Part shown: positions 1,751 to 50,016 of the stretch, piece after piece
How positions within the stretch are numbered: position 1 is the first letter of the stretch
Layout: every line of letters starts with the position of its first letter
DNA from: a virus
Reading direction: 5' to 3' (one strand)
DNA: 50,754 nucleotides
IMG/VR virus record: IMGVR_UViG_3300029286_000058
Location: 1 to 50,754 of that record
Notes under the pieces: generated by a model
Seen by the model: the letters and a program-made list of their open reading frames with translations, nothing else
Told to the model about the DNA's origin: nothing
The model's database searches: none
Program-made: the position numbers and the translations under genes

Positions 1751-2331
1751 TTGTTCTCCATTATATATGTAAAATAAGCATACCAGTAATCACGGTTCCA
1801 ATTTGTTTTAATATGGCAAGTTTGACACAACGTAATTAAATTTTCCATTTTATTGTTTTCTTTATTATAATCGATATGATGAACATCCAATTTACGATAG
1901 TCTTTATTTTTATTGCATTTCTTGCATTTACATAAATCTCTATTGCGAATTAAATCACGTATTTTATAGAATTTCTCGGGATATTTATTCGTTTCATACG
2001 GATTTCCAGTACCACCAGCACTTATGCTCATCTTCTTTTTGCTCTTTTTGCTATGTCGTTTTCCGTATAGTGGATGATTAACCCCGCTATTATTAAAAAT
2101 ATTTAATTTAAATTTCCGCTTATTTTCACATGAATAACATCTTACACTTCTAAAATTTATTTCTTTTTTACAATCTATACAATAATGTTTTTTAATAGAA
2201 TTTCCAGTAATCAAAGCAAATAAATTACCTATCATAGATTTTCCGTGTATTTTACCATAACACTTCTGACAGCGTTTCGATGAATTTTTAGTTTTTGCCT
2301 TATTACAGATAACGCATTTATCGTAGTTCAT
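1747..2331 (-). CDS. HNH homing endonuclease with zinc ribbons and NUMOD3-like segment
   Basis: A 194-residue modular nuclease: two N-terminal zinc ribbons (CVICNKAK...CQKC and CIDCKKEI...CYSC), a NUMOD3-like DNA-binding segment (LYGKRHSKKSKKKMS), then HNH with CKCKKC, LDVHHIDYNKEN and LCQTCH, ending in the NRDYW signature shared with four other genes here. The start is the ATG at 2331, with GGGGTGGA seven bases upstream; it sits inside the last codons of DNA polymerase, giving a 14-base overlap. A longer reading from 2436 would overlap polymerase by about 120 bases and is unlikely. Position between polymerase and resolvase fits a freestanding homing gene. Confidence 0.82.
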   Translation of the reverse strand: MNYDKCVICNKAKTKNSSKRCQKCYGKIHGKSMIGNLFALITGNSIKKHYCIDCKKEINFRSVRCYSCENKRKFKLNIFNNSGVNHPLYGKRHSKKSKKKMSISAGGTGNPYETNKYPEKFYKIRDLIRNRDLCKCKKCNKNKDYRKLDVHHIDYNKENNKMENLITLCQTCHIKTNWNRDYWYAYFTYIMENK

Positions 2332-4516
2332 AAGTCCACCCCAATGCTTCGTAAATTGTCTCAGCTTTTTTGTGTATGTTTCTTTCAGCCATTTCTGAAT
2401 AATCTGTTTTGTTGTTTCCAATATTCTGGTGTTCATCGAATGCCATAATTTCCTTAAATTTTTTAACTTCTGTAGTTTTAATCTTAGTTAATTCTTCTGA
2501 AGGATTGTCTTTTATTTCTTTTTTAGTTTTTTTAACTAATTTAGTTATTGTTTTAGTTTCAAATTTTTCGGGAATAATGAATGTGTAAAAATAATCCTGC
2601 CCAATTGTAACGTTCCATTCGGGGTGTTCTATTAATGCGTATCTTAAAGCACGGATGTGTATAGTTTCTACTTTATACGCTTCTGGAGACTTACTTAATT
2701 TGCATGGAAATGCTATTTCTAACAAAGATAGAGTTTTAAATCTCTCCAATTCTTCTTTAATCCATTTATCAGTTTCATCTTTTTGTTTACCACTTAACAA
2801 TTTAATCAATAAATCTTCCTGAAATCTTTCTTGAAATTTAGATGCATCACTTCTAAGAATTTCTAATCCTTTTATGATTGGTTTATCTTTTCCAATCATA
2901 TTTCCAATGTAATGCTTTTTAGAAACTATGAGTAATTCTGAGAATGTCCCCTCATATTTAAACTTTAATGTTCCAGAATCTTTTCCGAAATGATTTAAAA
3001 ATTCTGGGATAATCTGTTCATTAATCATTGACTGAATTACAGCATAGTCCTCTTCTGTCTTCACAAAAATAGAATCTGTATCACTGGCTACTACTTCATA
3101 ACCGAATGTTCTTAGTCTTAATTTGGTATATCTAATCAAAAATCTCGCTAAATAAGTAATCGTAGATGCAATATCTTTATTATACATGCGACTACTTTTG
3201 AATAATAGTGTACCGTAAACAGTGTTGTTTACTCCTTTAATAGCTGCATCTTTCTGCTTCATTAAATCTTTTTCATCTCCCGTGAGGGTTTCTACCAACT
3301 TCTGAATCTCTGCTCTAGAATTAACCATTTTTCTACAAACGGTTGGAACAATAGCATTTGTATTCTGCCAAATATTAACTTTATTTATAGTTACCGTTTG
3401 AGTATTAGGTTCTTTTTTTACATTTACTGGGTCCAGGCAAAAGGAAATGATTAAATTCGGGTACGTTCCGCCTACGTCAAATAAATGAACCCCTTTATGT
3501 AACCCTGGTTTAGCATAAACATATCCGCCTATAATCTCGTCTTCTTCCGTACGTCTAAATTTTTCATCTTCATCCGGTTTCGATGGGAGTATGACTCCTT
3601 TTTCTTTCGCAGTCTGTAAAATAACCCCATCCACTATAACTGAGTTCATGCATAAACTGTCCCATTGAATTTTTCCAATTCTTCTAAGTTCATCAAAGTA
3701 ATTGATGAGGTGAAATTTGTCTTCTAATTCCACCAACATCTTTATGTCATTTAAATTCTTTTCTTTAATCTTTGCATCTATAATATGAAACGCAAATTTT
3801 TCAGGTTTATATTCTTTTTTAAATTCAGTGCAATAAACATACTCCAATTTATATTTTTTAAATTTGTATATTTTTTTAACAAGTTCGTAGTAGTCTAAAA
3901 TACTTATTCCTGCGGGAAAACCATTTCGTTTTGTCATTTTACCAATAGGACTAAGTTTTTCAGCTAAATCTGGGAAACGAGTTGTTAAATATGGGTAATC
4001 AAAACCACGGGAATTATACCCAACTAATAAATCGGGAGTAATACTTTTAATATAAGTAATGAATGCTTCTATTAAAAGAAATTCGGATTTATAATCCAGT
4101 GTCCAGAATTGTTTGTATTCTTTTGTGAAGTTATCGTATGTCGTTATGCATGTGATTGGGTCTGGGGCATATAGTGGGTCTGGCATGTTTTTTGATTGAG
4201 TCTCAATATCAAAAAATACAAAACGCAATTCCGGTTTATCTAAGGTAACTTTGTCGAGAAGATATCTATTACAAAAATTTATATCCGCTTCTTGACTGAG
4301 ATTATCTCTTTTTTTGGAAATTTGATAGGGGTCATGGACAACTACTTTGTCCAGTTTTTCTCCAAAATAACCCTTAAAGATACCTTTCGTTGAGGGTTGG
4401 AAATAATAAGGTAGGAGAGAAGAATCCTGTAGAATCTGAAGTTCTTTACCCGTACGGTGAAACAACCATATTTTATTCCCTTCATTAAATATATTACAAA
4501 CTTTTAACTTTAACAT
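2318..4516 (-). CDS. family B DNA polymerase
   Basis: A 732-residue replicative polymerase with 3'-5' proofreading. Exonuclease motifs: FFDIETQ (D103, E105) and VGYNSRGFDYPYL (residues 165-177). Polymerase motif A is DVGGTYPNL from D347, which lacks the usual SLYPS wording. Motif B is KGVNNTVYG (427-435), motif C SDTDSIFV (478-485), and the KKHY thumb motif follows. The size is toward the short end for family B. The ATG overlaps the end of the upstream damaged HNH gene. This is the likely genome replicase, working with the primase-helicase and RecA-like protein upstream in the same operon. No thioredoxin-binding or TPR1/TPR2 protein-priming insert was recognised. Confidence 0.93.
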   Translation of the reverse strand: MLKLKVCNIFNEGNKIWLFHRTGKELQILQDSSLLPYYFQPSTKGIFKGYFGEKLDKVVVHDPYQISKKRDNLSQEADINFCNRYLLDKVTLDKPELRFVFFDIETQSKNMPDPLYAPDPITCITTYDNFTKEYKQFWTLDYKSEFLLIEAFITYIKSITPDLLVGYNSRGFDYPYLTTRFPDLAEKLSPIGKMTKRNGFPAGISILDYYELVKKIYKFKKYKLEYVYCTEFKKEYKPEKFAFHIIDAKIKEKNLNDIKMLVELEDKFHLINYFDELRRIGKIQWDSLCMNSVIVDGVILQTAKEKGVILPSKPDEDEKFRRTEEDEIIGGYVYAKPGLHKGVHLFDVGGTYPNLIISFCLDPVNVKKEPNTQTVTINKVNIWQNTNAIVPTVCRKMVNSRAEIQKLVETLTGDEKDLMKQKDAAIKGVNNTVYGTLLFKSSRMYNKDIASTITYLARFLIRYTKLRLRTFGYEVVASDTDSIFVKTEEDYAVIQSMINEQIIPEFLNHFGKDSGTLKFKYEGTFSELLIVSKKHYIGNMIGKDKPIIKGLEILRSDASKFQERFQEDLLIKLLSGKQKDETDKWIKEELERFKTLSLLEIAFPCKLSKSPEAYKVETIHIRALRYALIEHPEWNVTIGQDYFYTFIIPEKFETKTITKLVKKTKKEIKDNPSEELTKIKTTEVKKFKEIMAFDEHQNIGNNKTDYSEMAERNIHKKAETIYEALGWTYELR

Positions 4517-9039: not shown

Positions 9040-9523
9040 TTGTGCCTTTCTTAATGTTTTCATTTTCCCACAATGGTTGAAGGTTTGTATAGTGAAAACA
9101 TTTACGCTGTTCTTCAGATTTAGTCAAATTAAAGAATGAGCAAGGTATAATATGGTCTATTTCCCATTTCCCGTAATTTTCCCATGACATACCTTCTGAA
9201 AATAAATTCTTTAAATACACCTTCAAAAAATTGATATCACACCCTAAAAGATTAACAGTTGTGTCCGATTTCTGTTTTCTGTGTAACGCTTTAAATAATC
9301 TTGCTCGTAAATTATATTTGATTCTTGCATTAATATCTCTTTGCAATCTTCTTTTTCGTGCATTTTCATGTTGGACTAAAAGTTTTTTTCTGTTCTTTTT
9401 CCTATATTCTTTTTGATAAAGTGCTATTTCATCTTTATGTTCAACAACATAAATCTTATGAGAATTCAGTATCTTCTCTTTATTTCTCAGATAAGATTCA
9501 TGCCGTAATTGTTTCTTGTCCAT
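9032..9523 (-). CDS. HNH homing endonuclease (DHI-PC family)
   Basis: A 163-residue protein: basic coiled N terminus (KIYVVEHKDEIALYQKEYRKK), the linker NLRARLFKALHRKQKS, VNLLGCDINFL, and the nuclease core YGKWEIDHIIPCSFFNLT followed by CFHYTNLQPLW. Seven genes of this family occur in the window; this copy has IIPC in place of IRPC. It lies just after the primase-helicase with a one-base overlap. Homing function is inferred from family and placement. Confidence 0.82.
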   Translation of the reverse strand: MDKKQLRHESYLRNKEKILNSHKIYVVEHKDEIALYQKEYRKKNRKKLLVQHENARKRRLQRDINARIKYNLRARLFKALHRKQKSDTTVNLLGCDINFLKVYLKNLFSEGMSWENYGKWEIDHIIPCSFFNLTKSEEQRKCFHYTNLQPLWENENIKKGTNV

Positions 9524-11397
9524 TATATTCCACCTTCTGATGTTAGTTCTTTGGTTTCGAAATTGTATTTACAGGGTATTGTTGAATTTCTGTAATTTCC
9601 ACGGGGGTCTCTCAGTTTATCAACCTGCCAATGACCACTACTCCCGTCTTCCGCATCCATAAAATATCTTGCTGCTAATGCTGGCATCTGAACTACCATG
9701 GACGGAGCATACCAGTCAAACGAAGCAGGTTTGAGTTGCATAAAGATAACCAAAATCCCACCTTTACGTGCCATTTCTTCTGTAAAGAATTTAAATATTG
9801 TATCCGTGTTCTCTTTTTCAGAAACCAATAACCAGTCCAGTATTGTGAATGCACTTGGTTCAATTTCAATTGATAATGGATTTCCATGATATGCTTGATA
9901 AAAATCATTTTCTTTTAATCCTAACTTACTTGCGGTTTTTTGATACCTACTTCCTGATTCGGAATAAATATAATAAGGTTTTATTCCTTGCTTAACTAAT
10001 TGATGAATAAAATTCATACTGGTAGTAGTTTTTCCAGTTCCGGGAGTAGCACCTAATAATATAATATCTCCCTCTTCGAAATCCTGTAAATATTCAAAGT
10101 AAGGCATCTTATATTTAAGCGCAGTACCTATCTTACCCCAACTATCGGTCCATTCTACTCTTTCTCTAACCTTATATCTACCTCTTGATAATCGTATCGC
10201 TTTACCTTCTTTAACAAACTTAGATAAATATTTATCTACAATCGCTCGGGATAATTTTAAATTATCCATTATATCTTTCGCATTAACATCGTTCTGTAAC
10301 ATTTTAAGATACTCATAAATTGCCTGTTCTTGCGTAGTATCTTCGGCAGTTTTATATTTATCTAATGAACCAACCATTGCCTGAATTGCTTGCTGTGGCA
10401 TTGGATTCTGTAATAAATTACGATTCATTAAACTCAAAATAAATTCTGTCTGTTCTGAATTAAATTTATTAATCAGTATACCACCTAATTTAGTGAATGT
10501 ATCATTACAACATCCATCTAAACCGTTATTCACTAATTCAATTACTCCGTCGGAAGATGAAGATATTTTGGCAGGTTCTTCTACCTTTCTACCTACTTCT
10601 ACCTTCATTAATGCCAACAGTTTAACCTTAACCTCGTCGGAAAATGATTTAATTTCTGAATTAACATTTTTCCAATTATAATTTAACGTTTCCAATTTAG
10701 ATGGTTGAACTAAAATCTGACCGCCATCATTTCTAACATCAATTTTTAATCCAGCAATATCCACCGTCTGAGTAATCTCTTTATCGTATTTAAAAACATA
10801 ATGTACTCCTGAATGTGCTGTATTTTGCATCAATGTATTTGAATCATTCATTAATTGAATTAATTCTTTTCTCTGTGCTTCTAATTCTGGAGTTGCCAAA
10901 ACCTTATTATCTACATCAATGACAGTGATACCGCTAACTTCTCCGGTTCTAAGACCTATGTTATACCCATTATTTAACCATTTAATCCAATCCATCTTTT
11001 CTAAATGAGTAACATTTGTCCAATCTTTCTCAATCGGATGCTTTCCGTTTTTAGCTATCGGGACTAAAGACCAAGCATTTTTCTTATATACCTCTAATTC
11101 AGAATAAATGTCCACTGCAAAAGAATTAATTAAATACTCTGTAATCTGAGCATCTGAATAATTCTTTTTCTCCTCCTCTAGTATTCGGACTGCATCAAAA
11201 AAAGTTCCTCTCCAACCACATTGCATGCAGGTAATTTTTTGTGTACCTGAAATAGTTGTGGCAGTAGGACTTTTTCCAATGTATTTATGTCCTGCTAGAT
11301 TTGGACATGTAAATAGATTCTGTCCATTCTTGCTTGTTTTCTCAAAAGTTTTTAACTTACTTTTAAGATAATCAAATAATCTGTCATTTATCTCCAT
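9523..11397 (-). CDS. primase-polymerase/helicase fusion
   Basis: A 624-residue replication protein. Residues 31-60 hold a zinc site (C31, H37, C57, C60). Residues about 110-235 match a bifunctional primase-polymerase: GYNIGLRTGEVSGITVIDVDN with acidic D161/D163, then HSGVHYVFKY (H195, H199) and KIDVRNDGGQILVQPS. A winged-helix-like segment lies at 355-410. Residues 445 onward are a RecA-fold ATPase with Walker A GATPGTGKTTT (449-459). This would prime and unwind DNA for the family B polymerase downstream. The N-terminal zinc finger plus Prim-Pol plus P-loop is a known phage arrangement. ATG with GGGAGAG upstream. Confidence 0.85.
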   Translation of the reverse strand: MEINDRLFDYLKSKLKTFEKTSKNGQNLFTCPNLAGHKYIGKSPTATTISGTQKITCMQCGWRGTFFDAVRILEEEKKNYSDAQITEYLINSFAVDIYSELEVYKKNAWSLVPIAKNGKHPIEKDWTNVTHLEKMDWIKWLNNGYNIGLRTGEVSGITVIDVDNKVLATPELEAQRKELIQLMNDSNTLMQNTAHSGVHYVFKYDKEITQTVDIAGLKIDVRNDGGQILVQPSKLETLNYNWKNVNSEIKSFSDEVKVKLLALMKVEVGRKVEEPAKISSSSDGVIELVNNGLDGCCNDTFTKLGGILINKFNSEQTEFILSLMNRNLLQNPMPQQAIQAMVGSLDKYKTAEDTTQEQAIYEYLKMLQNDVNAKDIMDNLKLSRAIVDKYLSKFVKEGKAIRLSRGRYKVRERVEWTDSWGKIGTALKYKMPYFEYLQDFEEGDIILLGATPGTGKTTTSMNFIHQLVKQGIKPYYIYSESGSRYQKTASKLGLKENDFYQAYHGNPLSIEIEPSAFTILDWLLVSEKENTDTIFKFFTEEMARKGGILVIFMQLKPASFDWYAPSMVVQMPALAARYFMDAEDGSSGHWQVDKLRDPRGNYRNSTIPCKYNFETKELTSEGGI

Positions 11398-27735: not shown

Positions 27736-28314
27736 TTATTTACCTTTATAAAAACTTGATTTTTCTAAATTATCTTTAGCCCATAAAGGTTGCAAATTAG
27801 TATAATTAAAACATAGGGCTTGTTCTCCCGGCTTACTTAAATCGTAACTGCTACAAGGTCTTATATGGTCAATATGCCACTCTTTCATATTTCTACCATT
27901 CCAACCTGTTCCCCAATTATCCCAAGTCATACCTAATAAAAATTTTTTCTCTAAATACTTTCTAGCAAAATCTACACTACAACCTAATAACTTTATAGAA
28001 TGTTCTGATTTAACTATTCCTTTTAATACTTCTTGAATTCTCGTTCTTAAACTACTGGCTATCTTAAAATTTATATCTGTTTTTCTTTTGTTTCTGCTAT
28101 AATTATTTATTTCTATTTGTCTGACAAATAAACATTCGTTACATCTACAATTTAATTTATCTTTTCTTGAATTATCTAGTTTAAAATTTTCCACGGGCAA
28201 TTCTTCTTGGCAATCTAGGCATTTTTTAATTCCGTTTATAGCAAGAGAACCTCTTGGTTTATTTTTATATAACTTATCTTTGTAGTAGTATTTCATTCTC
28301 GATTTTCTTATCAT
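27736..28314 (-). CDS. HNH homing endonuclease (DHI-PC family)
   Basis: A 192-residue protein with a mid-N-terminal zinc pair (CLDCQEELP...CRCNEC) and the family core: SSLRTRIQEVLKG, IKLLGCSVDFA, an expanded segment GTGWNGRNMKEWHIDHIRPC, then CFNYTNLQPLW. The insert before the DHI motif (GWNGRN) is not seen in the other copies. It overlaps the upstream mini-gene by four bases. Confidence 0.83.
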   Translation of the reverse strand: MIRKSRMKYYYKDKLYKNKPRGSLAINGIKKCLDCQEELPVENFKLDNSRKDKLNCRCNECLFVRQIEINNYSRNKRKTDINFKIASSLRTRIQEVLKGIVKSEHSIKLLGCSVDFARKYLEKKFLLGMTWDNWGTGWNGRNMKEWHIDHIRPCSSYDLSKPGEQALCFNYTNLQPLWAKDNLEKSSFYKGK

Positions 28315-28900: not shown

Positions 28901-29917
28901 TTAGAATTCTCCATTGATTGATAATCCGTTTTCTTCTATTCCAATGGATATAACATTTCCCTTTTTATCAACTACTCTAGTGATTACTGGGCTAACACCT
29001 AATCTAGTTTCAATCGCTTTTACTCTTTGATTAGTATTCTCTATTAATTTTTCTTCGTAACTCTTACCAATCTTAAATAAAAATTTTACTCCTATTTCTG
29101 ATACTTTAGCCCTAGTAAAGTTCTGCTGAATATATGGGGTTATTGATAAATGTTTGCTATCATATACTCTAACACCTAATTCTGCAACTACTTGGGTTTT
29201 TTCTAATCTACCAACTCGGTTGCTTAAATCGTCAACTCTTGAATTTGTAGAATTAATATTATTTTTTAAATTAATATCTTCCTTTTGTAAATTATTAACT
29301 ACTTCTGGGTCTACATCTTTTCCATTTTCTCCATTAACCCCATTCGTTCCATTAAGTCCGTCAAAATAATCTACATTCTTAATAGGAGTATATCCGGCTT
29401 TTCCTGTTTTGCCTCTGTCGCCTTTATCTCCTTTAGCCCCTTTATCTCCTTTATCGCCCTTTAATCCGTCTTTTCCGTCTATACCATTTGTTCCGTCAAC
29501 TCCATTAAACCCTTGCAATCCTTGTATTCCCGGGTCGCCTTGCAATCCATTAAGTCCGTCTTTACCATTAATCCCAGATAGTCCTTGAATTCCCTGTATG
29601 CCTTGCAAACCCTGTAATCCGTCTTTACCATTGGTTCCGTTTATTCCGGAAACCCCCTGTATTCCTTGTAAACCAGTATCTCCTTTATCACCTTTTAGTC
29701 CACATATATCCCTCGGGTCTGTCCAAGTTCCTACACTATTACTGCCATGGTTTTCTCCTGTGCTAACAAAAATATCTCCCTTATCTCCATTGTTATTATC
29801 TGTAACTCCCCCGGCAAAAGCATTAGTCATTCCGCTAACTAAAACTGCAATTAAAACTAATCCTAATATGAATATTGTTCCGTCAAACTTTTTGATAAAC
29901 TCATTTAACTTTAACAT
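28901..29917 (-). CDS. exported collagen-like protein
   Basis: A 338-residue protein. Residues 13-36 are a hydrophobic signal or anchor ending in a cleavage-like TNAFA. Residues about 70-200 are collagen-type Gly-X-Y repeats rich in GDKGDKG and GLQGIQG. A short coiled coil follows (NNLQKEDINLKNN, RVDDLSNRVGRLEK), then a beta-rich C-terminal domain and a second helix (IENTNQRVKAIETRLG). It is trimeric in design and would sit outside the membrane. It lies in the early region, away from the virion genes, so it may be a host-surface protein made during infection or lysogeny rather than a tail fibre. Confidence 0.78.
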   Translation of the reverse strand: MLKLNEFIKKFDGTIFILGLVLIAVLVSGMTNAFAGGVTDNNNGDKGDIFVSTGENHGSNSVGTWTDPRDICGLKGDKGDTGLQGIQGVSGINGTNGKDGLQGLQGIQGIQGLSGINGKDGLNGLQGDPGIQGLQGFNGVDGTNGIDGKDGLKGDKGDKGAKGDKGDRGKTGKAGYTPIKNVDYFDGLNGTNGVNGENGKDVDPEVVNNLQKEDINLKNNINSTNSRVDDLSNRVGRLEKTQVVAELGVRVYDSKHLSITPYIQQNFTRAKVSEIGVKFLFKIGKSYEEKLIENTNQRVKAIETRLGVSPVITRVVDKKGNVISIGIEENGLSINGEF

Positions 29918-31642: not shown

Positions 31643-31672
31643 AGTATAACATATCTAATGCCCCTTTGTCAA
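31643..31672 (-). promoter_or_regulatory. sigma-70-type promoter with dyad over the -35
   Basis: Minus strand: TTGACA (31667-31672), 18 bases, TATACT (31643-31648), with an extended TG one base before the -10. The -35 lies inside the inverted repeat CCCCTTGACAAAGGGG, which could be an operator. The -35 overlaps the 3' end of the upstream gene. It drives the genes from 31.6 kb leftwards. Confidence 0.7.
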
Positions 31673-31948
31673 GGGGTTCGCTTTTAATTTCTTAATATGA
31701 TATTCTAATTCCTTTATGGTAAATTTATTCAAGTCCATAGCCATAACCTTAATTAAAGGGTCAAGAATATAGATTTCCTCTATTAACTTTTCTTTCCCGG
31801 GTTCTACTATCCCGGCTTTAAGAATATCGCCCTTTAATTCCTTGATTCTATGCTCTAATTCTAATCTTTCCGGGCTACCCGGTCTACATTTTAATTTTAA
31901 TTTCTTTAATTCCCGGATTCCTCTTTTAATCTCTTTAATTTCTGACAT
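31655..31948 (-). CDS. charged helical protein, unknown
   Basis: A 97-residue, very charged helical protein (EIKRGIRELKKLKLK, ERLELEHRIKELKG, KELEYHIKKLKAN). GAGGGG precedes the ATG at 31948. It ends in TAG within the promoter of the next unit. Coiled coil likely; function unknown. Confidence 0.5.
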   Translation of the reverse strand: MSEIKEIKRGIRELKKLKLKCRPGSPERLELEHRIKELKGDILKAGIVEPGKEKLIEEIYILDPLIKVMAMDLNKFTIKELEYHIKKLKANPLTKGH

Positions 31949-31949
31949 T

Positions 31950-32108
31950 TTATCCCCTCTCAATAGGTTTTACTAAAATATCTCTTACTCCCCTAAGTCT
32001 TAATTCGTTTATGTAACTAAGGGCTTGTCTATAAGTCGCCCCGGATATATAAACCCTCTCGGCTTGTGTAACTCTCCAATTCTTTTTTAAATAGATTTTA
32101 GTATTCAT
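31950..32108 (-). CDS. small basic protein, unknown
   Basis: A 52-residue ORF (MNTKIYLKKNWRVTQAERVYISG...) with AGGAG before the ATG. The arrangement strand-turn-helix resembles other phage early mini-proteins. Overlaps the upstream gene by eleven bases. Confidence 0.5.
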   Translation of the reverse strand: MNTKIYLKKNWRVTQAERVYISGATYRQALSYINELRLRGVRDILVKPIERG

Positions 32109-32301
32109 TATATTTTCTCCTGTATATTATATCGCCTTTAGAATTCATAAACCCTCTATCTATTAGAGATAATGCAAATTTACCAAAACCTAATTCCCAA
32201 ACTCTCCCGGTTCGCAAAAGTAAGCTGAATAAATCTAATACCGCTTGTCCTCTTAAAGTTCCGGCTTTATATTTCTCTATGCTTTCCAATTCGTTAATCA
32301 T
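32098..32301 (-). CDS. small phage protein, paralogue of 32634-32858
   Basis: A 67-residue protein with LLRTGRVWELG, FALSLIDRGFM and GDIIYRR. The same pattern (a helix, then L-x-L-I-x-x-G-[FY]-[IM], then G-x-I) is seen in the gene at 32634-32858, so the two are diverged paralogues of one common phage family. Function unknown. Confidence 0.55.
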   Translation of the reverse strand: MINELESIEKYKAGTLRGQAVLDLFSLLLRTGRVWELGFGKFALSLIDRGFMNSKGDIIYRRKYNEY

Positions 32302-32374
32302 TATATACCCCGGCTCTTGATTCGTTTTCGAGTGCTAACCCCTTAAATAAATTATCTAAAATTAAATCCCACAT
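32294..32374 (-). CDS. 26-residue peptide
   Basis: ORF MWDLILDNLFKGLALENES... with AAAGGGGG before the ATG and an eight-base overlap into the next gene. It could be a leader or a tiny protein. Only the SD and packing support it. Confidence 0.35.
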   Translation of the reverse strand: MWDLILDNLFKGLALENESRAGVYND

Positions 32375-32388
32375 AGTAACCCCCTTTT

Positions 32389-32637
32389 TTAGTAACCTAA
32401 ATTTTTAATTACTTCTCTAAATTTATTTCCGGTTGACCCGGCAAATCTTTCGGCGATAACTTTTAATAAAATTGTTTCAAATTCAAACCTTTCCCAAGTT
32501 CTATTCAAGTAACAAATTTTAGTTTTATATACAGAAAATCCATTACTGCATAAATTCGCTATATGCTTAAATCCGTTTCTAGTTCCTACTGAATCACACA
32601 CTACACTAAATCTTTCGTCTAAATTAAATATTTTCAT
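32389..32637 (-). CDS. small protein, unknown
   Basis: An 82-residue protein with the N terminus MKIFNLDERFSVVCDSVG and a helical second half (ETILLKVIAERFAG). The DNA-level CCGG count is high here too. Overlaps the upstream gene by four bases. No family recognised. Confidence 0.5.
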   Translation of the reverse strand: MKIFNLDERFSVVCDSVGTRNGFKHIANLCSNGFSVYKTKICYLNRTWERFEFETILLKVIAERFAGSTGNKFREVIKNLGY

Positions 32638-32858
32638 TTTTCCACCTCGTCAAATTCTTTTAAAATCTCCCCGGAATTCGATATATAGCCGGATTCTATT
32701 AAAGCCCTTGCGGTTCTCTGATAACTTCCTTGTAACGTGCATATCATATTGCTTTTAATCAATTCACTGAATAAAATTAATATATCATTTTCCTTTAACT
32801 CCCCGGATTCATAGCTGATTATGTTTCCCACAAAATCATAAAACTTTGCTTTTGACAT
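32634..32858 (-). CDS. small phage protein, paralogue of 32098-32301
   Basis: A 74-residue protein with LFSELIKSNMICTLQGSYQ, ARALIESGYISNSGEI. LQGxYxRxAxxLIxxGYI is recurrent among phage early proteins of unknown function. It is the first gene after the promoter at 32901-32929. Confidence 0.6.
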   Translation of the reverse strand: MSKAKFYDFVGNIISYESGELKENDILILFSELIKSNMICTLQGSYQRTARALIESGYISNSGEILKEFDEVEK

Positions 32859-32900
32859 TTTAGCCCTCGCTTTTAATGTTTCCTTTTCTGCCTACGATTA

Positions 32901-32929
32901 AATATAACATATTTTTAACCATTTTTCAA
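32901..32929 (-). promoter_or_regulatory. sigma-70-type promoter
   Basis: Minus strand: TTGAAA (32924-32929), 17 bases, TATATT (32901-32906). The sequence around and after the -10 (TGTTATATTTAATCGTAGGC) closely resembles the promoter at 34562-34590 (TGTTATAGTTAATTGTAGGC). The -35 overlaps the end of the upstream gene. Confidence 0.65.
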
Positions 32930-33297
32930 GCCCTCTTATCAATATATTTTATAGCCCGGAATAAGCAAACTACTGGGAATCCATTATCCCCGGATATACC
33001 CATATAACCCAATTTTTTGACTTGTTTTAATAAATCATTAAAATTAAATTTATCTTTTAAACCTTTTAAATCTTTTTCTAAATTATAAATCTTGCCCGGC
33101 TCAACTTCTGCAATATAGCAAAATTTTGTGCCGGATAAAAAATATTCCTTGCCTTTTCCTATATAGAAAAAACTGCGGTTTAAATCTGATTCCCTTGCGG
33201 ATTCTTTTGTATAATAATTAAGCCCAAAGTATTTAGGCTCAATTTTTCCTTTAAAATCCCGGTTTGAATAATGATATATTTGAATTTTTTTAGCCAT
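32926..33297 (-). CDS. conserved-looking phage protein, unknown
   Basis: A 123-residue protein: IQIYHYSNRDFKGKI, YFGLNYYT, a Ser/Arg block (ARESDLNRSFFYIG), CYIAEVEPGKIYNL, and KKLGYMGISGDNGFPVV. The HYS/YFG/R-S-F-F-Y pattern recalls ADP-ribosyltransferase-like or RES-type folds in layout, but no catalytic set can be confirmed. Confidence 0.5.
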   Translation of the reverse strand: MAKKIQIYHYSNRDFKGKIEPKYFGLNYYTKESARESDLNRSFFYIGKGKEYFLSGTKFCYIAEVEPGKIYNLEKDLKGLKDKFNFNDLLKQVKKLGYMGISGDNGFPVVCLFRAIKYIDKRA

Positions 33298-33305
33298 TTT
33301 TCCGC

Positions 33306-33713
33306 CTATATAGTAGTAAAAATTTCTATATAATATCTTTTATTTTCTTGGTATATGGTCAAGCCGGAATATTGCTTCAATGTTTCCCGGATTGATTGCT
33401 TTAAATTATCCCGGCTAACTTCTTTAATGATTCTATGCGGTAGAATAGTAATTTTATCCCTAGAATAATAAATATATCCTATATTGCCTATTTTATAAAA
33501 TATACATTCTTGCGGTTTTCCATTAGTTTTAATCCGCTTTAACAAGTCAAGGTAATTAAAAAAGTTATTTTCATAATAAAGCCCATTAATTACTTGGTTA
33601 TATTCTAAAGAGTTAATATAATCTTTTTCTACCTTGCCGGCTTCGTTAATCCAATAACCCCGGCAATTAGAATCTTTTTTACTTCCTGGAATGTATACAA
33701 TAGGTTTAATCAT
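33306..33713 (-). CDS. protein of unknown function
   Basis: A 135-residue protein from the ATG at 33713 (AAAGGGG upstream). Beta-rich N-terminal half (PIVYIPGSKKDSN, GYWINEAGKVEKDY) and a helical middle. No motif recognised. High CCGG density at the DNA level. Confidence 0.5.
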   Translation of the reverse strand: MIKPIVYIPGSKKDSNCRGYWINEAGKVEKDYINSLEYNQVINGLYYENNFFNYLDLLKRIKTNGKPQECIFYKIGNIGYIYYSRDKITILPHRIIKEVSRDNLKQSIRETLKQYSGLTIYQENKRYYIEIFTTI

Positions 33714-33714
33714 T

Positions 33715-34089
33715 TTAGCCCCTTTGGTATAACTCATTTTTCAATGTTATATGATTATCTTCTGCGGAATTAATATATAGAGTTATAATCTCTTTATATT
33801 GATTAATAACTAAAACTAAATCAATGCCGGGGTTATAATTTACCCGGTAACAACTTTTTTCCGGCTCTTTAGTTAAATCATTCAAATAATACTCGAAAAT
33901 CTGCTCCGGTAATAAATTTAAATTGCGGATATATAATAAAATTGATTCTAAATCAATAACTCTATACTTTAAATTTTCTAAACAATGCTCCGAATAACCC
34001 CATCTAAGCCTATTTAGCCGGGAAGTAAAGCCCTCAAGAGCTTTTTTATGGGCTAAATTGGTATAAACTTCAACATGATATCTTAACAT
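33715..34089 (-). CDS. protein of unknown function
   Basis: A 124-residue protein (MLRYHVEVYTNLAHKKALEG...), with helix (IDLESILLYIRNLNLLPEQI) and a strand-rich C-terminal part (IDLVLVINQYKEIITLYIN). AAAGGGG precedes the ATG. It overlaps nothing and lies one base before the next gene. No family recognised. Confidence 0.5.
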   Translation of the reverse strand: MLRYHVEVYTNLAHKKALEGFTSRLNRLRWGYSEHCLENLKYRVIDLESILLYIRNLNLLPEQIFEYYLNDLTKEPEKSCYRVNYNPGIDLVLVINQYKEIITLYINSAEDNHITLKNELYQRG

Positions 34090-34599: not shown

Positions 34600-35578
34600 C
34601 AAAAATAATTAAAATATTTTTAGGGATAGTTAAAACAAGATAATCATTAAAAATAAAGCCGGATAATTAATTATGCTAAGATAAGAGATAATAAAATAGT
34701 TTTAATGAGTTAATAATAAATCATTCTATTGAGTTAATTTATAAAACTGGCAAAGCCCAAACTTACCTAGACTTACTTGTGAATTATAATTTATTTATAA
34801 TAATAAATCATAACTGAAGCATTGGCAATCGATTATAAATTCTTATAACTTATTGCAATCATTAGAGATAGCCCGGCAGGTTAAAATTAGCAACTAAAAC
34901 CACTTTTAATTTTACCCGATAGACTGTTTGCTCATGAGAAGAAATTAATTTTTCCATTCCAATAAATATAAAATCAATAACACCATCATGTTACATTAAT
35001 TATTTAATAAAAATCCCATGCATCCATCATTATTGGTCAATCTCTGGCGAATAATTATATATTATTTCTTATATATTATTGCTATTATTAATCTTATATT
35101 AATATTTAGTCTGACAAATCCTCTGTCAGTAATTTATTGCTCGGTAAATTATCTATTCCGTTGCCAAAAATTCCCTCACACCCGTAAGGAAAAATATAGC
35201 GTAACTCTACTAAATAACGAGAGTTACAACAATTAGCAAAATCAAGCACAAACCTTCCCCAGTGGGGTTATATTTAGCAAAAAGGTATATATCCTACTTT
35301 TACCAATAATATACGTTTCCAGTTCATCGAATTAAGAAATTTAATGTATTCTTTCTGCTTATGCGGGATGTTAAATTTAGCAATAAGTCTAATCTATATC
35401 ACTTTGCCAACATCGGCAAACAGATGTGCGTATCCTTTTTTTATATGTTTTGCCAAAATACTATATAAAGTGTATATATTCTTCTTAAATTCTATATATC
35501 ACATGAAACTACTAATTTGCTGCCAGTGAATACTAAATTAGTATTTACATAATGTACTGCAATCAGTAATGTTATAAA
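34600..35578. other. gene-free AT-rich divergent region, part 1
   Basis: No ORF here has both a ribosome-binding site and a plausible protein. The stretch is very AT-rich. It contains recurring TTTAGCAA/TTTGCCAA words (around 35229, 35270, 35373, 35400, 35450), a CCGG at 34660 and another near 34870, and an inverted repeat at 35201-35227. Together with its position between the divergent gene blocks this suggests control or replication signals. Confidence 0.5.
35201..35227. repeat. 8-bp inverted repeat
   Basis: GTAACTCT (35201-35208) and AGAGTTAC (35220-35227) are perfect complements separated by 11 bases. This could be an operator or a hairpin. It lies in the gene-free region left of the TCTACC array. 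Confidence 0.55.
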
Positions 35579-35837
35579 TCTACCTACCATCTACCAGCAA
35601 TCTACCCATTATCTACCTTCTCAAGTCAGGTAGAAGTGAGGTAGAAGTTAGTAGATTCGGGTAGAAGTAGTCTTTATCACAACGATAAATTACAATACAA
35701 TCTCTGCATGCGTATAGTTTCTACCCTATTTCTACCTTTTTATAAGTGTTAACGATTTCAATAGGTTACGAGTTTCTACCTAGTTTCTACTATTTAAGGG
35801 TAGATGAAGGTAGATACTAAATCTACCTCAATCTACC
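35579..35837. repeat. TCTACC/GGTAGA hexamer array (iteron-like; candidate origin)
   Basis: At least 14 exact copies of TCTACC or its complement in about 260 bases, plus TCTACT and AGTAGA variants. Plus-strand copies begin at 35579, 35590, 35601, 35612, 35720, 35731, 35775, 35822 and 35832; complement copies begin at 35629, 35640, 35660, 35799 and 35809. The first four are spaced exactly 11 bases, about one helical turn, and 35629/35640, 35720/35731 are also 11 apart. Copies face both ways and a very AT-rich tract follows at 36.06-36.17 kb. This fits an initiator or regulator binding array at a replication origin in the divergent gap. Confidence 0.7.
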
Positions 35838-36680
35838 TAATTAGTTTTATATCAAGCATCAATCTTAGATTTGCCGAGCCGAGTTTCCCCCAGCCCCCCA
35901 GGATTATGTAAGTCGACCAATATGAGGAGATTATGATTGTTATTCTCCGCATAGCCTTGCGGATGTTCGTTTGGAAGGGATAAACAAATTGGGCGGATTA
36001 TACGTGGAGCGCTTTTTAGCGACACCTAATTAGATTTATGGTTTATATAAATCTAATTAAAAACAAAAGGTTTTCTTAAATAATTGTTATTGATTACTTA
36101 TATTCTAATTAATGATTATTAATATATTATATAATCAATGACTTATATAAGGCTGAGATAAGATTAATTAAATTGGTCAATATAACGTGTTTTATTATTT
36201 TGTGAGTGTGCGGGGGCATTTTGCCAGAAATTGCTTCATATAAAGCAGTCTATTCATTGTAACTTGAAAAATATTATATAGCCTGAAAAAATTTAACGAT
36301 TGATTTTATGAAATGGTTAAAATTGAGCGATATAATCAATCTATTTGTTAAATAACTCATATAACGATGATATATCTATATATATTGCAACATGTTATAT
36401 AATTTACATAACTATAATGATTGCAATATGATACATAAATTACTAAGTGTAATGATATCAACGAGTTAAGTAATCTTTTTACATAACTCAAGTTGTTTCA
36501 AGTATTTAAAGAATAAACGGGAGTTTTTTAAAAATAATTTGGAGCATTATTATAAGTGTATTAATAACAATAGGTTATGATATAAATTATTTTTAGGTTG
36601 CCCCTTGACTTTCGACTCAAAAACCGCAAACTTCTTGTATAGAGGCATAAAGTTTTTAATCTTAAAATAGAAAGGGTTAT
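35838..36680. other. gene-free AT-rich divergent region, part 2
   Basis: No supported gene. A short hairpin CCGCA/TGCGG lies at 35947-35962. The tract 36060-36170 is almost pure A/T and could be a DNA-unwinding element for the neighbouring hexamer array. Near 36605-36643 are TTGACT and TATAGA, with poor spacing (27 bases), so a phage-sigma or other late promoter is possible but not established. An AGAAAGGG SD precedes the first plus-strand gene. Confidence 0.45.
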
Positions 36681-37187
36681 ATGACAGATTTAGAGTTTAA
36701 CTTATTTTTCAATATTCATCCAAAAGACCCGATTAAAGAGTATGCTGCGGAGTATTTTAAGTTACACACAGAACAGTCAGATATATCACGAAAAATTAGC
36801 CAAAAGGTTTATCGTGAAACACACCGATATCAGAAGAACGAAAGAGAACGGAACAGAAGAAATACCGATATAGTATATAGATTAAGACTTTATTTAGCTA
36901 GCAGAATATTAAATGTTTTGAAAGGGAAAACCAAATCCGACTCAACCACGAAATTAGTTGGCTGTAGTAGAGAATTTTTTAAGAAATATTTTCACTCAAA
37001 ATTTACATCGGGAATGACATGGGAAAGGTTCATGAACGGTGAAATTCACATAGACCACATAAGACCATGTGCATCGTTCGATTTATCGAAACCAGAAGAA
37101 CAAAGATTATGTTTTCACTATACGAACTTGTAGCCCTTATGGGCTAAAGATAATTTAATAAAAAGTAATAAATGTTCTTTTAAATAA
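36681..37187 (+). pseudogene. HNH homing endonuclease interrupted by an amber codon
   Basis: The frame encodes the DHI-PC HNH family over 168 positions: LASRILNVLKGKTKS, KLVGCSREFF, IHIDHIRPCASFDLS and CFHYTNL, then TAG at 37131-37133, then PLWAKDNLIKS to a TAA. Intact relatives all have NLQPLW, so the amber replaces a conserved Gln (CAG to TAG, one change). The catalytic core lies before the stop, so a truncated 150-residue product could still be active. It may also be decaying or suppressed. It is the first gene of the plus-strand block, placed just before the structured leader. Confidence 0.7.
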
Positions 37188-38156: not shown

Positions 38157-38498
38157 ATGAATATTTATGATTTCGAAATTGTAATATTAGATACTAAAAC
38201 AATCCCGCTAGAATTCTATACTGATTCTGGAAAAATCGATATTTCTGCATGGACTGTATTTTTTACGATGAAAGAAAAAATTACAGATTTGGATGCTGCT
38301 GCGAAAATTTCAAAAACAATAACCGTTCATGTTGACCCGACAAATGGTTATACTGAAATTCCATTAACTTCTGCGGATACCACACAAAATCCTGGAAATT
38401 ATGTTTATGATGTTCAGGTAAAATATTCTGGAGAAATTAAAACTATTTTAACAGGAACAATAACTATTCTTAGTGGAGTTACAATAAGAGTCGCCTAA
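38157..38498 (+). CDS. BppU-like N-terminal domain protein (baseplate/receptor-binding)
   Basis: A 113-residue beta-rich protein: ISAWTVFFTMKEKITDLDAAAKISK, DPTNGYTEIPLTSADT, NPGNYVYDVQVKYSGEIKT and ending LSGVTIRVA. This matches the small immunoglobulin-like domain found at the N terminus of baseplate or receptor-binding proteins. It stands alone here and is followed by collagen-like fibre genes. Function as an adaptor is inferred. Confidence 0.6.
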   Translation: MNIYDFEIVILDTKTIPLEFYTDSGKIDISAWTVFFTMKEKITDLDAAAKISKTITVHVDPTNGYTEIPLTSADTTQNPGNYVYDVQVKYSGEIKTILTGTITILSGVTIRVA

Positions 38499-38859: not shown

Positions 38860-39417
38860 ATGGCGACAAAAAGAATTGCAGTAATGGACGAATTTCCGTT
38901 TCAGCCATCAGTAAAAGATTTTATAACTGATGCTGCTCGTGCGGGAATAGGTTCACCAGTAAAAGGTGATAGGTACATTCTTACAGACGGTGCTAATGCT
39001 GATAAAATATGCTACCATGATGGGGCGATATGGCAATATTTAACACCGGTACAAGGATGGTTAGTTTTCGATGAGGATTCAGATAAATTTTATAAGTTTA
39101 TTACGTCATGGACCGAATATATTGGTCAGGCTGGGGCGGACGGTACAACGGGTGCTGTAGGTACTACGGGAGCTGAGGGTGCTGACGGAACTACAGGTAT
39201 CGTCGGAACTACAGGCGCTGTTGGAACCACAGGTGCTGTAGGTACTACGGGAGCTGAGGGTGCTGACGGAACTACAGGTATCGTCGGAACTACAGGCGCT
39301 GTTGGAACCACGGGTGCTGTAGGTACTACGGGAGCAACCGGAACTACCGGAGCAGATTTATTAGCATCGACTTATGTTGCTGAATATCATTGCCTCGAGA
39401 TTTCTTATATTGAATAA
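38860..39417 (+). CDS. collagen-like tail fibre protein (DUF2793-like head)
   Basis: A 185-residue protein. Residues 20-85 resemble DUF2793-type tail domains ([30 protein letters not shown]). Residues 92-165 are collagen-like repeats with GTTGA units, containing an 81-bp direct repeat at the DNA level. A short C-terminal tail ends the protein. The N-terminal domain is closely related to that of the gene at 40161-41201, so the two genes are duplicates with different ends. Confidence 0.7.
39151..39335 (+). repeat. 81-bp tandem repeat in collagen-like gene
   Basis: A unit of 81 bp (27 codons) starts at 39151 and repeats at 39232; a partial third copy starts at 39313. The first two copies differ by essentially one base (ACCACA versus ACCACG at the end). 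Near-identity at synonymous sites points to recent slippage or recombination, so fibre length may vary between isolates. Confidence 0.85.
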
Positions 39418-39428
39418 TATTTAAAAAT

Positions 39429-39452
39429 GAGGGGAGTCGAAAGACTCCTCTC
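39429..39452 (+). terminator. GAAA-loop hairpin, possible terminator
   Basis: GAGGGGAGTC (39429-39438) pairs with GACTCCTCTC (39443-39452) around a GAAA tetraloop, ten pairs with one G-U. It follows the collagen-like gene by about ten bases. There is no T-run after it, so it may be a weak terminator or an mRNA-stabilising hairpin. A homing endonuclease gene begins immediately after. Confidence 0.6.
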
Positions 39453-39460
39453 CCAAAATA

Positions 39461-40138
39461 ATGAAAAAATATTGTATAGATTGTAAAAAAGAGATTTATT
39501 ATAAAAGTACTAGATGTAAATCTTGCGCTAAAAAAGGAAATCAAATAGCCCGAATTGATGGTAGAAGTACTATAAAACATTATTGTATCGATTGTGGTAA
39601 AGAAATTTGGTATACGAGTACTCGCTGTAAAAAGTGTGCAAAACAAGGTAAGTTACATTCACAATTTGGTATGAAAAGACCTGATGTAAGTGAGAGAATG
39701 AAAGGAAATAACAATATAAATTTTATTGATGGAAGAACGATGTTGAAATACCATTGTTCAGAATGTGGAAAAGAAATAACTTATAATATTAATAGTAAAG
39801 GAAAATGTCAACAGTGTTATGATAGAGTGGGAGATAAAAATCCTAATTGGATTGACGGAAGAACTAATTTTCCATACCCAAAAGAATTTATAAAATTACG
39901 AAATACCATTCGTAAACGTGATGATTATAAATGTAAAAACTGTGGAATGACGGAAGAGGAACATTTAATAGTTATCGGTACTAATTTACATGTTCATCAT
40001 ATCGATTATAATAAAGAAAATTTAAAAGAAGATAATTTAATAACTTTATGCGGTGCATGTAATATTAGAGCAAATTATAATAGAGAATATTGGAAAGATT
40101 TTTATATTAATTTAATGAATAAAATTTTCTCAAAATAA
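39461..40138 (+). CDS. HNH homing endonuclease with three zinc ribbons
   Basis: A 225-residue protein: ribbons CIDCKKEI...CKSC, CIDCGKEI...CKKC and CSECGKEI...CQQC, then the nuclease part CKNCGMTEEE, LHVHHIDYNKEN, LCGACNIRANYNREYW. There is no SD before the ATG; it starts nine bases after the hairpin, so its expression is probably low or depends on the hairpin. It separates two related fibre genes. Confidence 0.83.
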   Translation: MKKYCIDCKKEIYYKSTRCKSCAKKGNQIARIDGRSTIKHYCIDCGKEIWYTSTRCKKCAKQGKLHSQFGMKRPDVSERMKGNNNINFIDGRTMLKYHCSECGKEITYNINSKGKCQQCYDRVGDKNPNWIDGRTNFPYPKEFIKLRNTIRKRDDYKCKNCGMTEEEHLIVIGTNLHVHHIDYNKENLKEDNLITLCGACNIRANYNREYWKDFYINLMNKIFSK

Positions 40139-40160
40139 TAATTAAAAAGGAAAATTAATA

Positions 40161-41201
40161 ATGGCGACTAAAAAAGTACCTATAATAGATGAATTTCCCT
40201 GGCAAGGTTCTGTTGTTAGGATAATACCATATACTACTTTATCAGAAGAATATACTGAGAAAGGTTTTAGATTTCTTATTAGTGCTGGAGATTATGAGAA
40301 TACTATTGCTATTTGTACAAATGCAACTGGACCAGTATATACTTTTCTTACTCCTGCTGAAGGTTGGATATTATGGGTTAATAATTTAGATAAATATTAT
40401 AAATTTGACGGAACTAATTGGTCTATAGATATTTCAGCAACAGGTACTACAGGAGCTACTGGTACTACGGGAGCTCAGGGCGAGACCGGTACTACAGGTG
40501 CAGGAGTAGATGGTACTACAGGCGCTGAAGGTGCTGATGGTACGACAGGTGCAACCGGAACAACTGGTGCTGGAATTTCTGGAACAACTGGAGCAATCGG
40601 AACTACAGGCGCCACAGGTACTACCGGCTCTGCAGCTGCTGCAGACTATCCTTGTTTAAGACCACGTAAATCTGGATGTCCATATACAATTCCAGGTTGG
40701 ATTTCTTTTGCCTCATCTAATCAGGCATCACTTAATATTCTTTATTATATTCCTATTTTTCTTAATGAAACTATGACTTTTGATAGAATAACTATAAACG
40801 TTTCAACAGCTGGAGCTTCCGGAGCATTAGCAAGATTAGGAATTTATAATTCTACATCTGGAGTTCCAAGCACTCGTATTGTGGATTGTGGTACTGTTGC
40901 TACTGATAGTACTGGAGCAAAAGAAATAACTATAAATCAAACATTAAATAGAGGTTATTATTTTCTTTGTTGGGTTGGAGATAAAGATACAACATATAAA
41001 TGCATGTCAGCTTCTGACTCTTGTTTACCCATTGGCGGATACAGAGTTAATAATACTGACTTAACTTTAACTGGTTATGAAGTTTTTTATTTAACCGGTC
41101 AAAGTGCTTTAGTTGCATCAGGATTTCCTGCTAATGCAGCTGCAGTAGAAGGAACAGACGCAGTAACTAGGGCAATAATTTTATTGCGGAGGTCAGCATG
41201 A
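40161..41201 (+). CDS. collagen-like tail fibre protein with C-terminal globular domain
   Basis: A 346-residue protein: DUF2793-like N terminus ([28 protein letters not shown]), collagen-like repeats of GATGTTGA type (residues 93-155), and a beta-rich C-terminal domain of about 190 residues ([45 protein letters not shown]) that would bind the host surface. It shares its N terminus with the shorter gene at 38860-39417. Two Trp/Cys-rich segments may bind sugars. This is the best candidate for the receptor-binding tip. Confidence 0.7.
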
Positions 41202-42914: not shown

Positions 42915-44527
42915 TTGATAGAATAAACGAAGATGAGTTAGCGATATTCAACACATTGCACAACCCTATCGCTGCCACAGAAATTTTATTTAGCGATTTA
43001 GGAAATCTTTCTGAATTTGACGAATTTAAATTCTCCGAAGTAAGAAAATATCAGTGGGACTATCTGAGTTGGGATTATTTGCTCTTTGACAATGGAACTT
43101 ATACAGAAAAAGAATTTTTTAATTTAAAAAAAGGTATGGCTGAAACTTATATCCTTGGTGGACGATTAACAGGAAAATCTCTACTTGGACTTATAGTTGA
43201 TGCGACTTTAGCGTTATTTCACAATACGTTTCATAAAGGTTCTGTATCAAGTGCTGATGCCGAAAAAATAAAAAAGGTTATGGAACAAATTTTTGTTCCT
43301 TTGGAATTTCACCCAATATTAAAATTATTAAATATTCGAGTAATTAGAAATCCTTATCAAGCTAAAACCCCAGCAGGAACGATTTTAGAATCAGTAAATT
43401 CGAATATCGCTGGAAAAAATCCTGGCGGAAATTGGCACGGAAGGCATGATGAGAAAAATTTTGAGGAAGAGGCATCATATCTCACAAATCAGGTAACACA
43501 TGAGAAGTTAATGGCTCAGTCAGAAATGGGGTGTATTCATCATTATACAGGAATGACTACATTCGCCAAAGAATCGCCAATGGGTAAAATTTTCTATGAT
43601 TTAAAGAATGAAAGTAAAATAATTAATTTTCCTTCTTATGTTAATCATACATGGGATGCGGATAAAGAAGAAGCAGCGATTCGAGAATTTGGTGGTAAGT
43701 CATCTTCAGGTTATCAGGTGCAAATCGATGGTCAAGTAATTGAAAATGGTGAATCAGTTTATATAATTGAAAAAATAAGAGATACTTATCTTCGTGATGC
43801 GAACGGAACACCATTACCAATTAAAACTTTCGAAATAAATACTAATAATTTCTTTAGATTTAAAGACATAGTTATAGTAGATAGACCAAATAATGCCGAT
43901 TCAATTCACATACACATGGATATCGGTGAAGGCGGAGCGCCAACGGAAATAATCGTTCTTTCTAAAATAAACGATGTTTATAAATATATTTATAACATCA
44001 CCACATTTAAAATCGCTCCTGATGAGAACGAAGTAGTTGTTAGATATCTAATCGAAACAATGAAGGCAAATGTAATTGGAATAGATATCACATCGGGTGG
44101 TGGAAAAGCATTATTTTGCAATTTAGCGAAAGATTACAATAAAGAAAACGAGGAACACATCTTTGGAGTGTCTTTTAATGAGAAAATTGCAATAGGTTTC
44201 AAGCAAGATGAAAAAGGAAATTCTACTTCAGAACATGTTGAGGAATACATTGTTGATTGGAGCATCCAAAGATTAAAACAGATTTTTTATAACAGTAAAA
44301 TTAGATGCCTTTACGATTTAAAGTTGGACGCACAGATGGACGGAATTATCGTAATGAAATCAGGTCAAAGAACTGTATATGGCTCTAAGTGTGCAAACCA
44401 TTTACACCAAGCCTTCCAGGTTTTTAGCATTGTAGATTGGCAAACTGAATTTAAAAATATAAATCCTACTCAACGACAAAAATTGGGCTTGGGTTCCATG
44501 GGTAGTAAAAAACAACGAATAATATGA
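42911..44527 (+). CDS. terminase large subunit
   Basis: A 538-residue packaging motor and nuclease. Walker A is LGGRLTGKS (82-90), a Walker-B/catalytic region HGRHDEKNFEEEA (176-188) follows, and a coupling motif HYTGMTTFAKES. The nuclease domain carries D-containing strands HIHMDIGEGGAPTE and VIGIDITSGGGKA, and an acidic DLKLDAQMDG. It would cut the concatemer and drive DNA into the prohead through the portal encoded downstream. The GTG start overlaps the TGA of the HNH gene. Confidence 0.85.
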   Translation: MIDRINEDELAIFNTLHNPIAATEILFSDLGNLSEFDEFKFSEVRKYQWDYLSWDYLLFDNGTYTEKEFFNLKKGMAETYILGGRLTGKSLLGLIVDATLALFHNTFHKGSVSSADAEKIKKVMEQIFVPLEFHPILKLLNIRVIRNPYQAKTPAGTILESVNSNIAGKNPGGNWHGRHDEKNFEEEASYLTNQVTHEKLMAQSEMGCIHHYTGMTTFAKESPMGKIFYDLKNESKIINFPSYVNHTWDADKEEAAIREFGGKSSSGYQVQIDGQVIENGESVYIIEKIRDTYLRDANGTPLPIKTFEINTNNFFRFKDIVIVDRPNNADSIHIHMDIGEGGAPTEIIVLSKINDVYKYIYNITTFKIAPDENEVVVRYLIETMKANVIGIDITSGGGKALFCNLAKDYNKENEEHIFGVSFNEKIAIGFKQDEKGNSTSEHVEEYIVDWSIQRLKQIFYNSKIRCLYDLKLDAQMDGIIVMKSGQRTVYGSKCANHLHQAFQVFSIVDWQTEFKNINPTQRQKLGLGSMGSKKQRII

Positions 44528-49990: not shown

Positions 49991-50016
49991 CCATAAATTT
50001 TATCATGAAAGGAAAA

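Follow-up and report, generated by a model that had tools for sequence, protein, structure and literature searches.

TCTACC iterons at a very probable replication origin of an uncultivated ~100-kb phage

A cluster of TCTACC sites, located where two sets of genes diverge, is very probably the place where an uncultivated phage of ~100 kb starts copying its DNA, because in three relatives such a cluster is found with the same arrangement of a palindrome, a C-rich tract, and an easily melted A/T stretch around it. More specifically, we propose with good confidence that positions 35529-36135 of the window (the whole 50.7-kb stretch of DNA that was analyzed) form an iteron origin at which a winged-helix initiator of the phage would bind TCTACC and an A/T segment would be melted. 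Binding, melting, initiation, its direction, and the identity of the initiator are all things that we infer from sequence. The origins of large uncultivated phages have seldom been located from sequence alone, and an order of parts that holds in four genomes, together with a named candidate initiator, makes the use of this origin directly testable.

The phage and its relatives

The window is a fragment of a phage with a circular map of ~96-109 kb. Nucleotide and protein BLAST of the window found no near relative among annotated phages, and the family-B polymerase matches only distant phages (22-26%), chiefly cyanophages and other T4-like phages. Searches for the host yielded nothing beyond a 30% match to one contig of a Longicatena MAG, and Rfam gave only a chance-level match to let-7. 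We compared the window with three relatives. G001 is close (96.5 kb; its polymerase is 81% and its PrimPol protein 90% identical). It is probably circular, because its contig ends overlap within a collagen-like repeat, and the assembler probably broke the circle at this repeat, as the contig ends fall within it. G006 and G008 are distant relatives of 105 and 110 kb, with end repeats of ~127 bp (identity to the window phage is 34-36% for the polymerase and 48% for the PrimPol protein). As G006 and G008 are near-identical at the array (97%), we count them as one witness.

The first-pass annotation described a gene-free gap at which transcription diverges, and the gene map agrees. To the left, genes on the − strand encode a family-B DNA polymerase (2318..4516, − strand; PF00136, 1.4e-33; phrog_262, 3.8e-66), a PrimPol-helicase, RecA, a RuvB-like ATPase, a tyrosine recombinase, and a 5'-3' exonuclease. 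To the right, genes on the + strand encode fibre-like proteins, collagen-repeat proteins, and HNH nucleases. Collagen-like repeat proteins are found on both sides of the putative origin (38860-41201 and 28901-29917).

Two further features were seen in these genomes. First, seven paralogues that are 42-52% identical and have an HNH-like DHIxP motif are dispersed over the window (4510-4851, 9032-9523, 12113-12718, 27736-28314, 36681-37133, 44524-45192, and 50005-50652). The copy at 12113 has no Pfam match and the copy at 36681 has no PHROG match. One copy lies just right of the putative origin and is absent from that place in G001, which has at least 6 copies, mostly at other places. These paralogues are probably an unannotated family of mobile HNH nucleases. 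Second, the PrimPol-helicase of G008 (exactly at the Walker A lysine) and its family-B polymerase are interrupted by insertions of ~400 amino acids with an N-terminal Cys and a C-terminal His-Asn (G008:106081-109119 and G008:93655-96939). These insertions are absent from G006 and are probable inteins.

A phased array of TCTACC sites

Fourteen or more exact copies of TCTACC or its complement GGTAGA had been reported between 35579 and 35837, in both orientations. A recount finds 14 at the same coordinates, with 9 on the + strand and 5 on the − strand. Near-exact TCTACT sites lie in register at 35650 and 35786, for a total of 16 sites. They are arranged as follows:

35579..35665: iteron block I, with four TCTACC on the + strand at 11-bp steps, then GGTAGA on the − strand at 35629, 35640, and 35660, and also TCTACT at 35650; inverted about ~35623, with positions and spacing as in G001
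35666..35719: core 1, which separates iteron blocks I and II; the sites on either side are 60 bp apart, as they are in G001
35674-35690: inverted repeat TTTATC-ACAAC-GATAAA in core 1, kept in G001 and not in G006 or G008
35720..35736, + strand: iteron block II, a pair of TCTACC with an 11-bp step, retained in G001
35737..35774: core 2 (GTTAACGATTTCAATAGGTTACG), kept in G001 with a 2-bp length change
35775..35837: iteron block III, with TCTACC at 35775, TCTACT at 35786, GGTAGA at 35799 and 35809, and TCTACC at 35822 and 35832

The steps between the 16 sites are 11, 11, 11, 17, 11, 10, 10, 60, 11, 44, 11, 13, 10, 13, and 10 bp. The neighbors that had been described as exactly 11 bp apart are indeed so (35579/35590/35601/35612, 35629/35640, and 35720/35731), and there is a further 11-bp step from TCTACC at 35775 to TCTACT at 35786. 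With so many steps of 10-11 bp, the array has the helically phased clustering of short sites that characterizes an iteron origin.

The clustering is far above chance, as the first-pass annotation had argued from the expected density of a hexamer. The maximum in 2,000 Markov simulations of the gap was 3 copies of TCTACC/GGTAGA per 260 bp, and no other hexamer of the window is as clustered as TCTACC. The whole window contains 36 copies (shuffled sequences had a mean of 14.6 and a maximum of 24). As 14 of the 36 are inside the array and the other 22 are scattered over the window, no equal density is seen elsewhere. Separately, the PrimPol gene contains three TCTACC within 24 bp (10580-10603). This trio is probably codon-driven, because it is conserved in G001 but not clustered in G006 or G008.

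Conservation of the array and of its neighbors

Identity to G001 is 95.8% in the hexamers, 81% in the spacers of the array, and 44% (left) and 58% (right) in the flanking gap. Thus, as in an iteron origin, the hexamers are better conserved than the spacers (Fisher p=3e-4). All 16 site positions are recognizable in G001, with a single 2-bp length change and with one mismatch in each of the last three sites of block III. The arrays of G006 and G008 occupy the corresponding divergent gap, adjoined by homologues of window genes 31655-33737 (left) and 38157-38498 (right); they consist of the same hexamer with the sites rearranged.

Three further parts flank the array:

35529..35545: palindrome AATACT-AAATT-AGTATT, left of the array
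35880..35935: block conserved in the alignment, in which the C-rich tract CCCCCAGCCCCCC (35887-35899) precedes a GTAAGTCGACCAATATGAGGAGATTA block
36035..36134: candidate DNA-unwinding element (88% A/T); by nearest-neighbor stability, no other 100 bp of the window is as unstable

The palindrome AATACT-N5-AGTATT is present in three copies in G006 and in a single copy in each of the window, G001, and G008, and in all four genomes one copy is immediately left of the array sites. (In G001, the loop differs and the arms are retained.) The C5-N2-C5 tract occurs once in each of the four genomes, always on the right side of the array (35887-35899 in the window, 93238 in G001, 36140 in G006, and 33527 in G008). 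It could be a priming site or a G-quadruplex-forming strand. G008 has an additional poly-G run elsewhere in its genome. A sequence similar to the C-rich tract, CCCCTACCCCCCCCC, lies inside the TCTACC region of another contig, G017. In G006 and G008, a few TCTACC sites are also found outside these limits, on the left side of the palindrome and beyond the C-rich tract on the right.

The first-pass annotation also noticed an A/T tract beside the array. The tract is there, but its position is better given as 36035-36135, 198 bp right of the last site. The unstable segment starts at nearly the same distance past the array in every genome (198, 200, 208, and 208 bp in the window, G001, G006, and G008), so that an adjacent A/T-rich segment of low stability, as expected for an iteron origin, has equivalents 200-208 bp off in the three relatives. 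In three of them (the window, G006, and G008), no stretch of 100 bp in the whole sequence is less stable than this segment, and in G001 the segment at +200 bp is in the top 0.08% of the genome for instability. The least stable segment of G001, however, is 1.2 kb to the left of the array and not to its right, which counts against an origin. Overall, the order of palindrome, TCTACC array, C5-N2-C5 tract, and unstable A/T segment is common to the four genomes. The proposal that this gap holds a replication origin is thus supported, as the array, its spacing, its orientations, and its meltable neighbor are conserved in three relatives.

Cumulative GC skew had been suggested as a check, and its minimum does fall inside the gap; the sign of the skew changes at the array in four of four genomes. 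This coincides with the switch in gene orientation and is not independent proof. Because the arms of G001 are unequal (about 33 and 63 kb) and the skew follows gene direction, we set it aside as weak evidence.

A candidate initiator

The likeliest initiator, we infer, is the phage's own PrimPol protein:

9523..11397, − strand: PrimPol-winged-helix-RecA-like protein of 624 amino acids, candidate initiator and replicative helicase-primase

This is the only PrimPol-helicase gene that we found in the window phage. The protein has a Zn-ribbon-like N-terminus, a PrimPol domain (~104-247), a winged helix (~350-410), and a RecA-like helicase domain (~437-624). The Prim-Pol profile matches at 1.4e-19, while HTH_11 (2.4e-4) and DnaB_C (0.0022) are both below the cut-off. 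The nearest solved relatives are ORF904 of pRN1 (PrimPol domain, E=1e-4) and the DnaB helicase. As in PrimPol-helicase replicons, a PrimPol domain is fused to a helicase domain, whose RecA/DnaB-like P-loop has sub-cut-off E values of 0.001-0.002; for the type of helicase, there are only weak DnaB/KaiC-like matches and a match to a DnaB chain. (An AlphaFold model of the protein, with pLDDT of 43, was too poor for use.)

The winged helix is the best-conserved domain of this protein: 45 of 61 positions are identical in G006 (74%), as compared to 250 of 547 elsewhere in the protein (46%, p=2e-5). This would fit with a domain that reads an unchanged site, but is suggestive only. Counting against the candidate, its gene is ~24 kb from the array, unlike at SaPI or Cch-type origins. 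An HMM of the winged helix matched nothing outside the window phage's family, and no winged helix in common with the initiators of the other TCTACC lineages described below was found. As for other kinds of initiator, we found no VapE match in G000, G001, G006, or G008, no DUF5906 match over the cut-off, and no Rep_3 protein (the Rep_3 search was positive in the controls, E. coli and L. lactis).

We propose that the initiator binds the 14-16 TCTACC sites by its winged-helix domain. In the runs of 10-11 bp, protomers would be stacked on one face of the helix, and the opposed blocks would provide seats for two complexes facing in opposite directions. The nucleoprotein would bend or underwind the DNA and so melt the A/T segment ~200 bp to the right. 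The helicase, the PrimPol primase, and the family-B polymerase would then assemble, and replication would proceed outwards along both of the divergently transcribed arms.

TCTACC arrays in unrelated phages

A search with a three-site TCTACC pattern gave 15 viral contigs, and 13 of these have 6-12 TCTACC sites within 350 bp. A control search with the reversed hexamer gave 17 contigs, none with more than 5 sites, and when the array contigs were scanned with a reversed two-site control, nothing matched. (On its own, the conserved core repeat TTTATCACAACGATAAA hit 14 unrelated contigs without arrays besides G001, and was rejected.) Altogether, TCTACC arrays are present in about ten other phage lineages, on contigs that range from 25% to 63% G+C; as these were selected by a TCTACC search, their number does not indicate how frequently origins use this hexamer. 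Six unrelated lineages have the array immediately 3' of a gene of helicase or primase type (in one lineage a gene without an assignment), which also backs the interpretation as an origin:

G003, G004, G010, and G012: 3' of a DUF927/Cch-HTH helicase gene
G005 and, separately, G013: 3' of a VapE gene
G009: 3' of a PrimPol-PriCT-AAA_25 gene
G015: 3' of a Toprim/P-loop gene
G016: 3' of a gene for a 722-aa protein without family assignment

Two other contigs, G007 (19092 and 53650) and G011 (18893 and 54279), have two TCTACC arrays each, neither of which directly adjoins the DUF5906/VapE-like helicase gene.

Starting instead from the proteins, we found that in 6 of 10 annotated VapE/Cch-type phages (Listeria LWP01, Staphylococcus R1988, Paenibacillus NHScienceFair, Streptococcus Javan610, Roseburia Jekyll, and Rhodobacter RcPescado) the helicase gene is immediately followed by a cluster of a different hexamer. 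TCTACC clusters were absent from these annotated phages. The arrays with other hexamers are:

L099, 7326: GTCAAC
L100, 7399: GTTGCA
L103, 7236: GTTGCA
L105, 6468: AACTAC
L097, 7620: GTAACA
L101, 7552: GTGAGA

With such clusters in 6 of the 10, these sequences show a general layout in which the array comes after the helicase gene and the hexamer varies. The arrays with other hexamers are probable unannotated origins.

TCTACC itself is found, with steps of 8-11 bp, in phages with PrimPol-RecA-like, VapE, Cch/DUF927, and Toprim/P-loop helicases. TCTACC might be a widely shared origin "word," read by a common, unrecognized DNA-binding module that is swapped between unrelated initiators, but we consider this rather unlikely. 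HMMs of the window phage's conserved proteins identified no shared initiator in the other TCTACC contigs: they matched only HNH nucleases, collagen-like proteins, weak sigma-like and recombinase matches, and one 82-aa protein. (The sigma-factor-like protein at 23695-24333, with a weak sigma region 2 and a winged HTH/region 4, has weak relatives in G007 and G011.) We found no publication that names TCTACC iterons among open-access full texts. How the specificity of initiators has evolved becomes a testable question, given that one hexamer recurs next to unrelated replication helicases.

Alternative explanations

A variant of the origin reading is that the sites are bound by a host-encoded protein or by a separate small phage protein. 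We view this as a tentative possibility, and a separate small DNA-binding protein as a possible binder: the same hexamer accompanies unrelated helicases (Cch/DUF927, VapE, PrimPol-AAA_25, and Toprim/P-loop), no common DNA-binding domain was detected among them, and the candidate initiator gene is not adjacent to the array. But a single host factor is unlikely given the span in G+C of the contigs, and the several different hexamers of the annotated VapE/Cch-type phages favor recognition that is specific to the initiator.

A second possibility is that the array is a transcriptional operator, where a repressor or activator would control divergent early and late promoters. It does lie where transcription diverges, and the phage encodes the sigma-factor-like winged-helix protein mentioned above. 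This nevertheless seems quite improbable, as the best promoter-like site, which matches at 11 of 12 positions (34590-34562, − strand), lies ~1 kb to the left of the array, the right-hand genes begin more than 800 bp away, and the gap has about as many promoter matches as expected by chance (24 versus 23.9). Also, an operator leaves the unstable segment at a constant distance, and the arrays 3' of helicase genes, unexplained.

Third, the array could be a partition centromere (parC/parS-like), with an adaptor such as ParR on the iterons and a ParA, ParM, or TubZ motor that segregates the genome during plasmid-like lysogeny. The parC of plasmid R1 has 11-bp iterons in two sets, which the array resembles in layout, and the circular maps and the tyrosine recombinase are compatible with a temperate or plasmid-like phage. 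We think this very unlikely because the four genomes have no ParA over the cut-off (sub-threshold matches are only in the RecA gene), no tubulin/TubZ match, and no ParM match (although the ParM search was not positive in any control genome); the array has no motor gene next to it; and arrays of the same hexamer elsewhere adjoin helicase or primase-type genes.

Finally, a neutral tandem-repeat expansion or chance cluster can practically be dismissed: some TCTACC contigs (e.g., L015, L023, and L025) do have plain tandem repeats with the hexamer in an 11-bp unit, but in the window the five bases between sites vary from copy to copy, the sites are in both orientations with hexamers better conserved than spacers, and the conservation in G001, G006, and G008 contradicts it.

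Comparison with known origins

The origin of phage lambda, where theta replication starts, has an array of O-protein iterons and an A/T-rich melting segment; the iterons are four repeats of ~18 bp inside gene O. The putative origin in the window likewise combines an iteron array with an A/T-rich segment, but its sites are hexamers in intergenic DNA, and no homologue of O or P was recognized among the scanned proteins. Iteron plasmids with Rep_3/RepA also have repeats, bound by the initiator, next to an A/T-rich region. In the window, the repeats are much shorter, there is no Rep_3 protein, and we noticed no DnaA box. The candidate initiator shares its PrimPol domain with ORF904 of pRN1, but its helicase part looks RecA/DnaB-like rather than SF3, it has a winged helix in between, and the architecture of the replicon differs.

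In SaPI origins, an A/T-rich segment lies beside the iterons. Multiple short iterons are common to the window and to SaPI Rep origins, where they are bound by an initiator helicase that the element encodes (PMC7581432). The origins of SaPI and SCCmec are directly downstream of the helicase gene, and the C-terminal domain of the helicase (SaPI Rep or SCCmec Cch2) binds the short iterons (PMC7581432). The arrays of G003/4/10/12, G005, G009, G013, G015, and G016 are similarly placed, directly 3' of a helicase or primase-type gene, and in the lineage of G003/4/10/12 the gene at the TCTACC array is that of a Cch-HTH helicase. In contrast, the array in the window is in a divergent gap 24 kb from the helicase-primase gene. 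SCCmec Cch2 is a self-loading helicase with five-base iterons (AAGTG) (PMC7581432). It has three iterons, versus 14-16 sites in both orientations and a separate melting segment in the window. Among the families searched, the window phage has no Cch-type helicase match and no VapE/DUF5906 helicase over the cut-off.

As the array is not beside a helicase gene (the distance to the candidate initiator gene is ~24 kb) and no D5/VapE/Cch-type helicase was detected that might be the initiator, we place the putative origin outside the SaPI/SCCmec class. It is read most economically as an iteron origin bound by an initiator, with an unwinding segment downstream, and would still work as SaPI, SCCmec, and lambda-type origins do.
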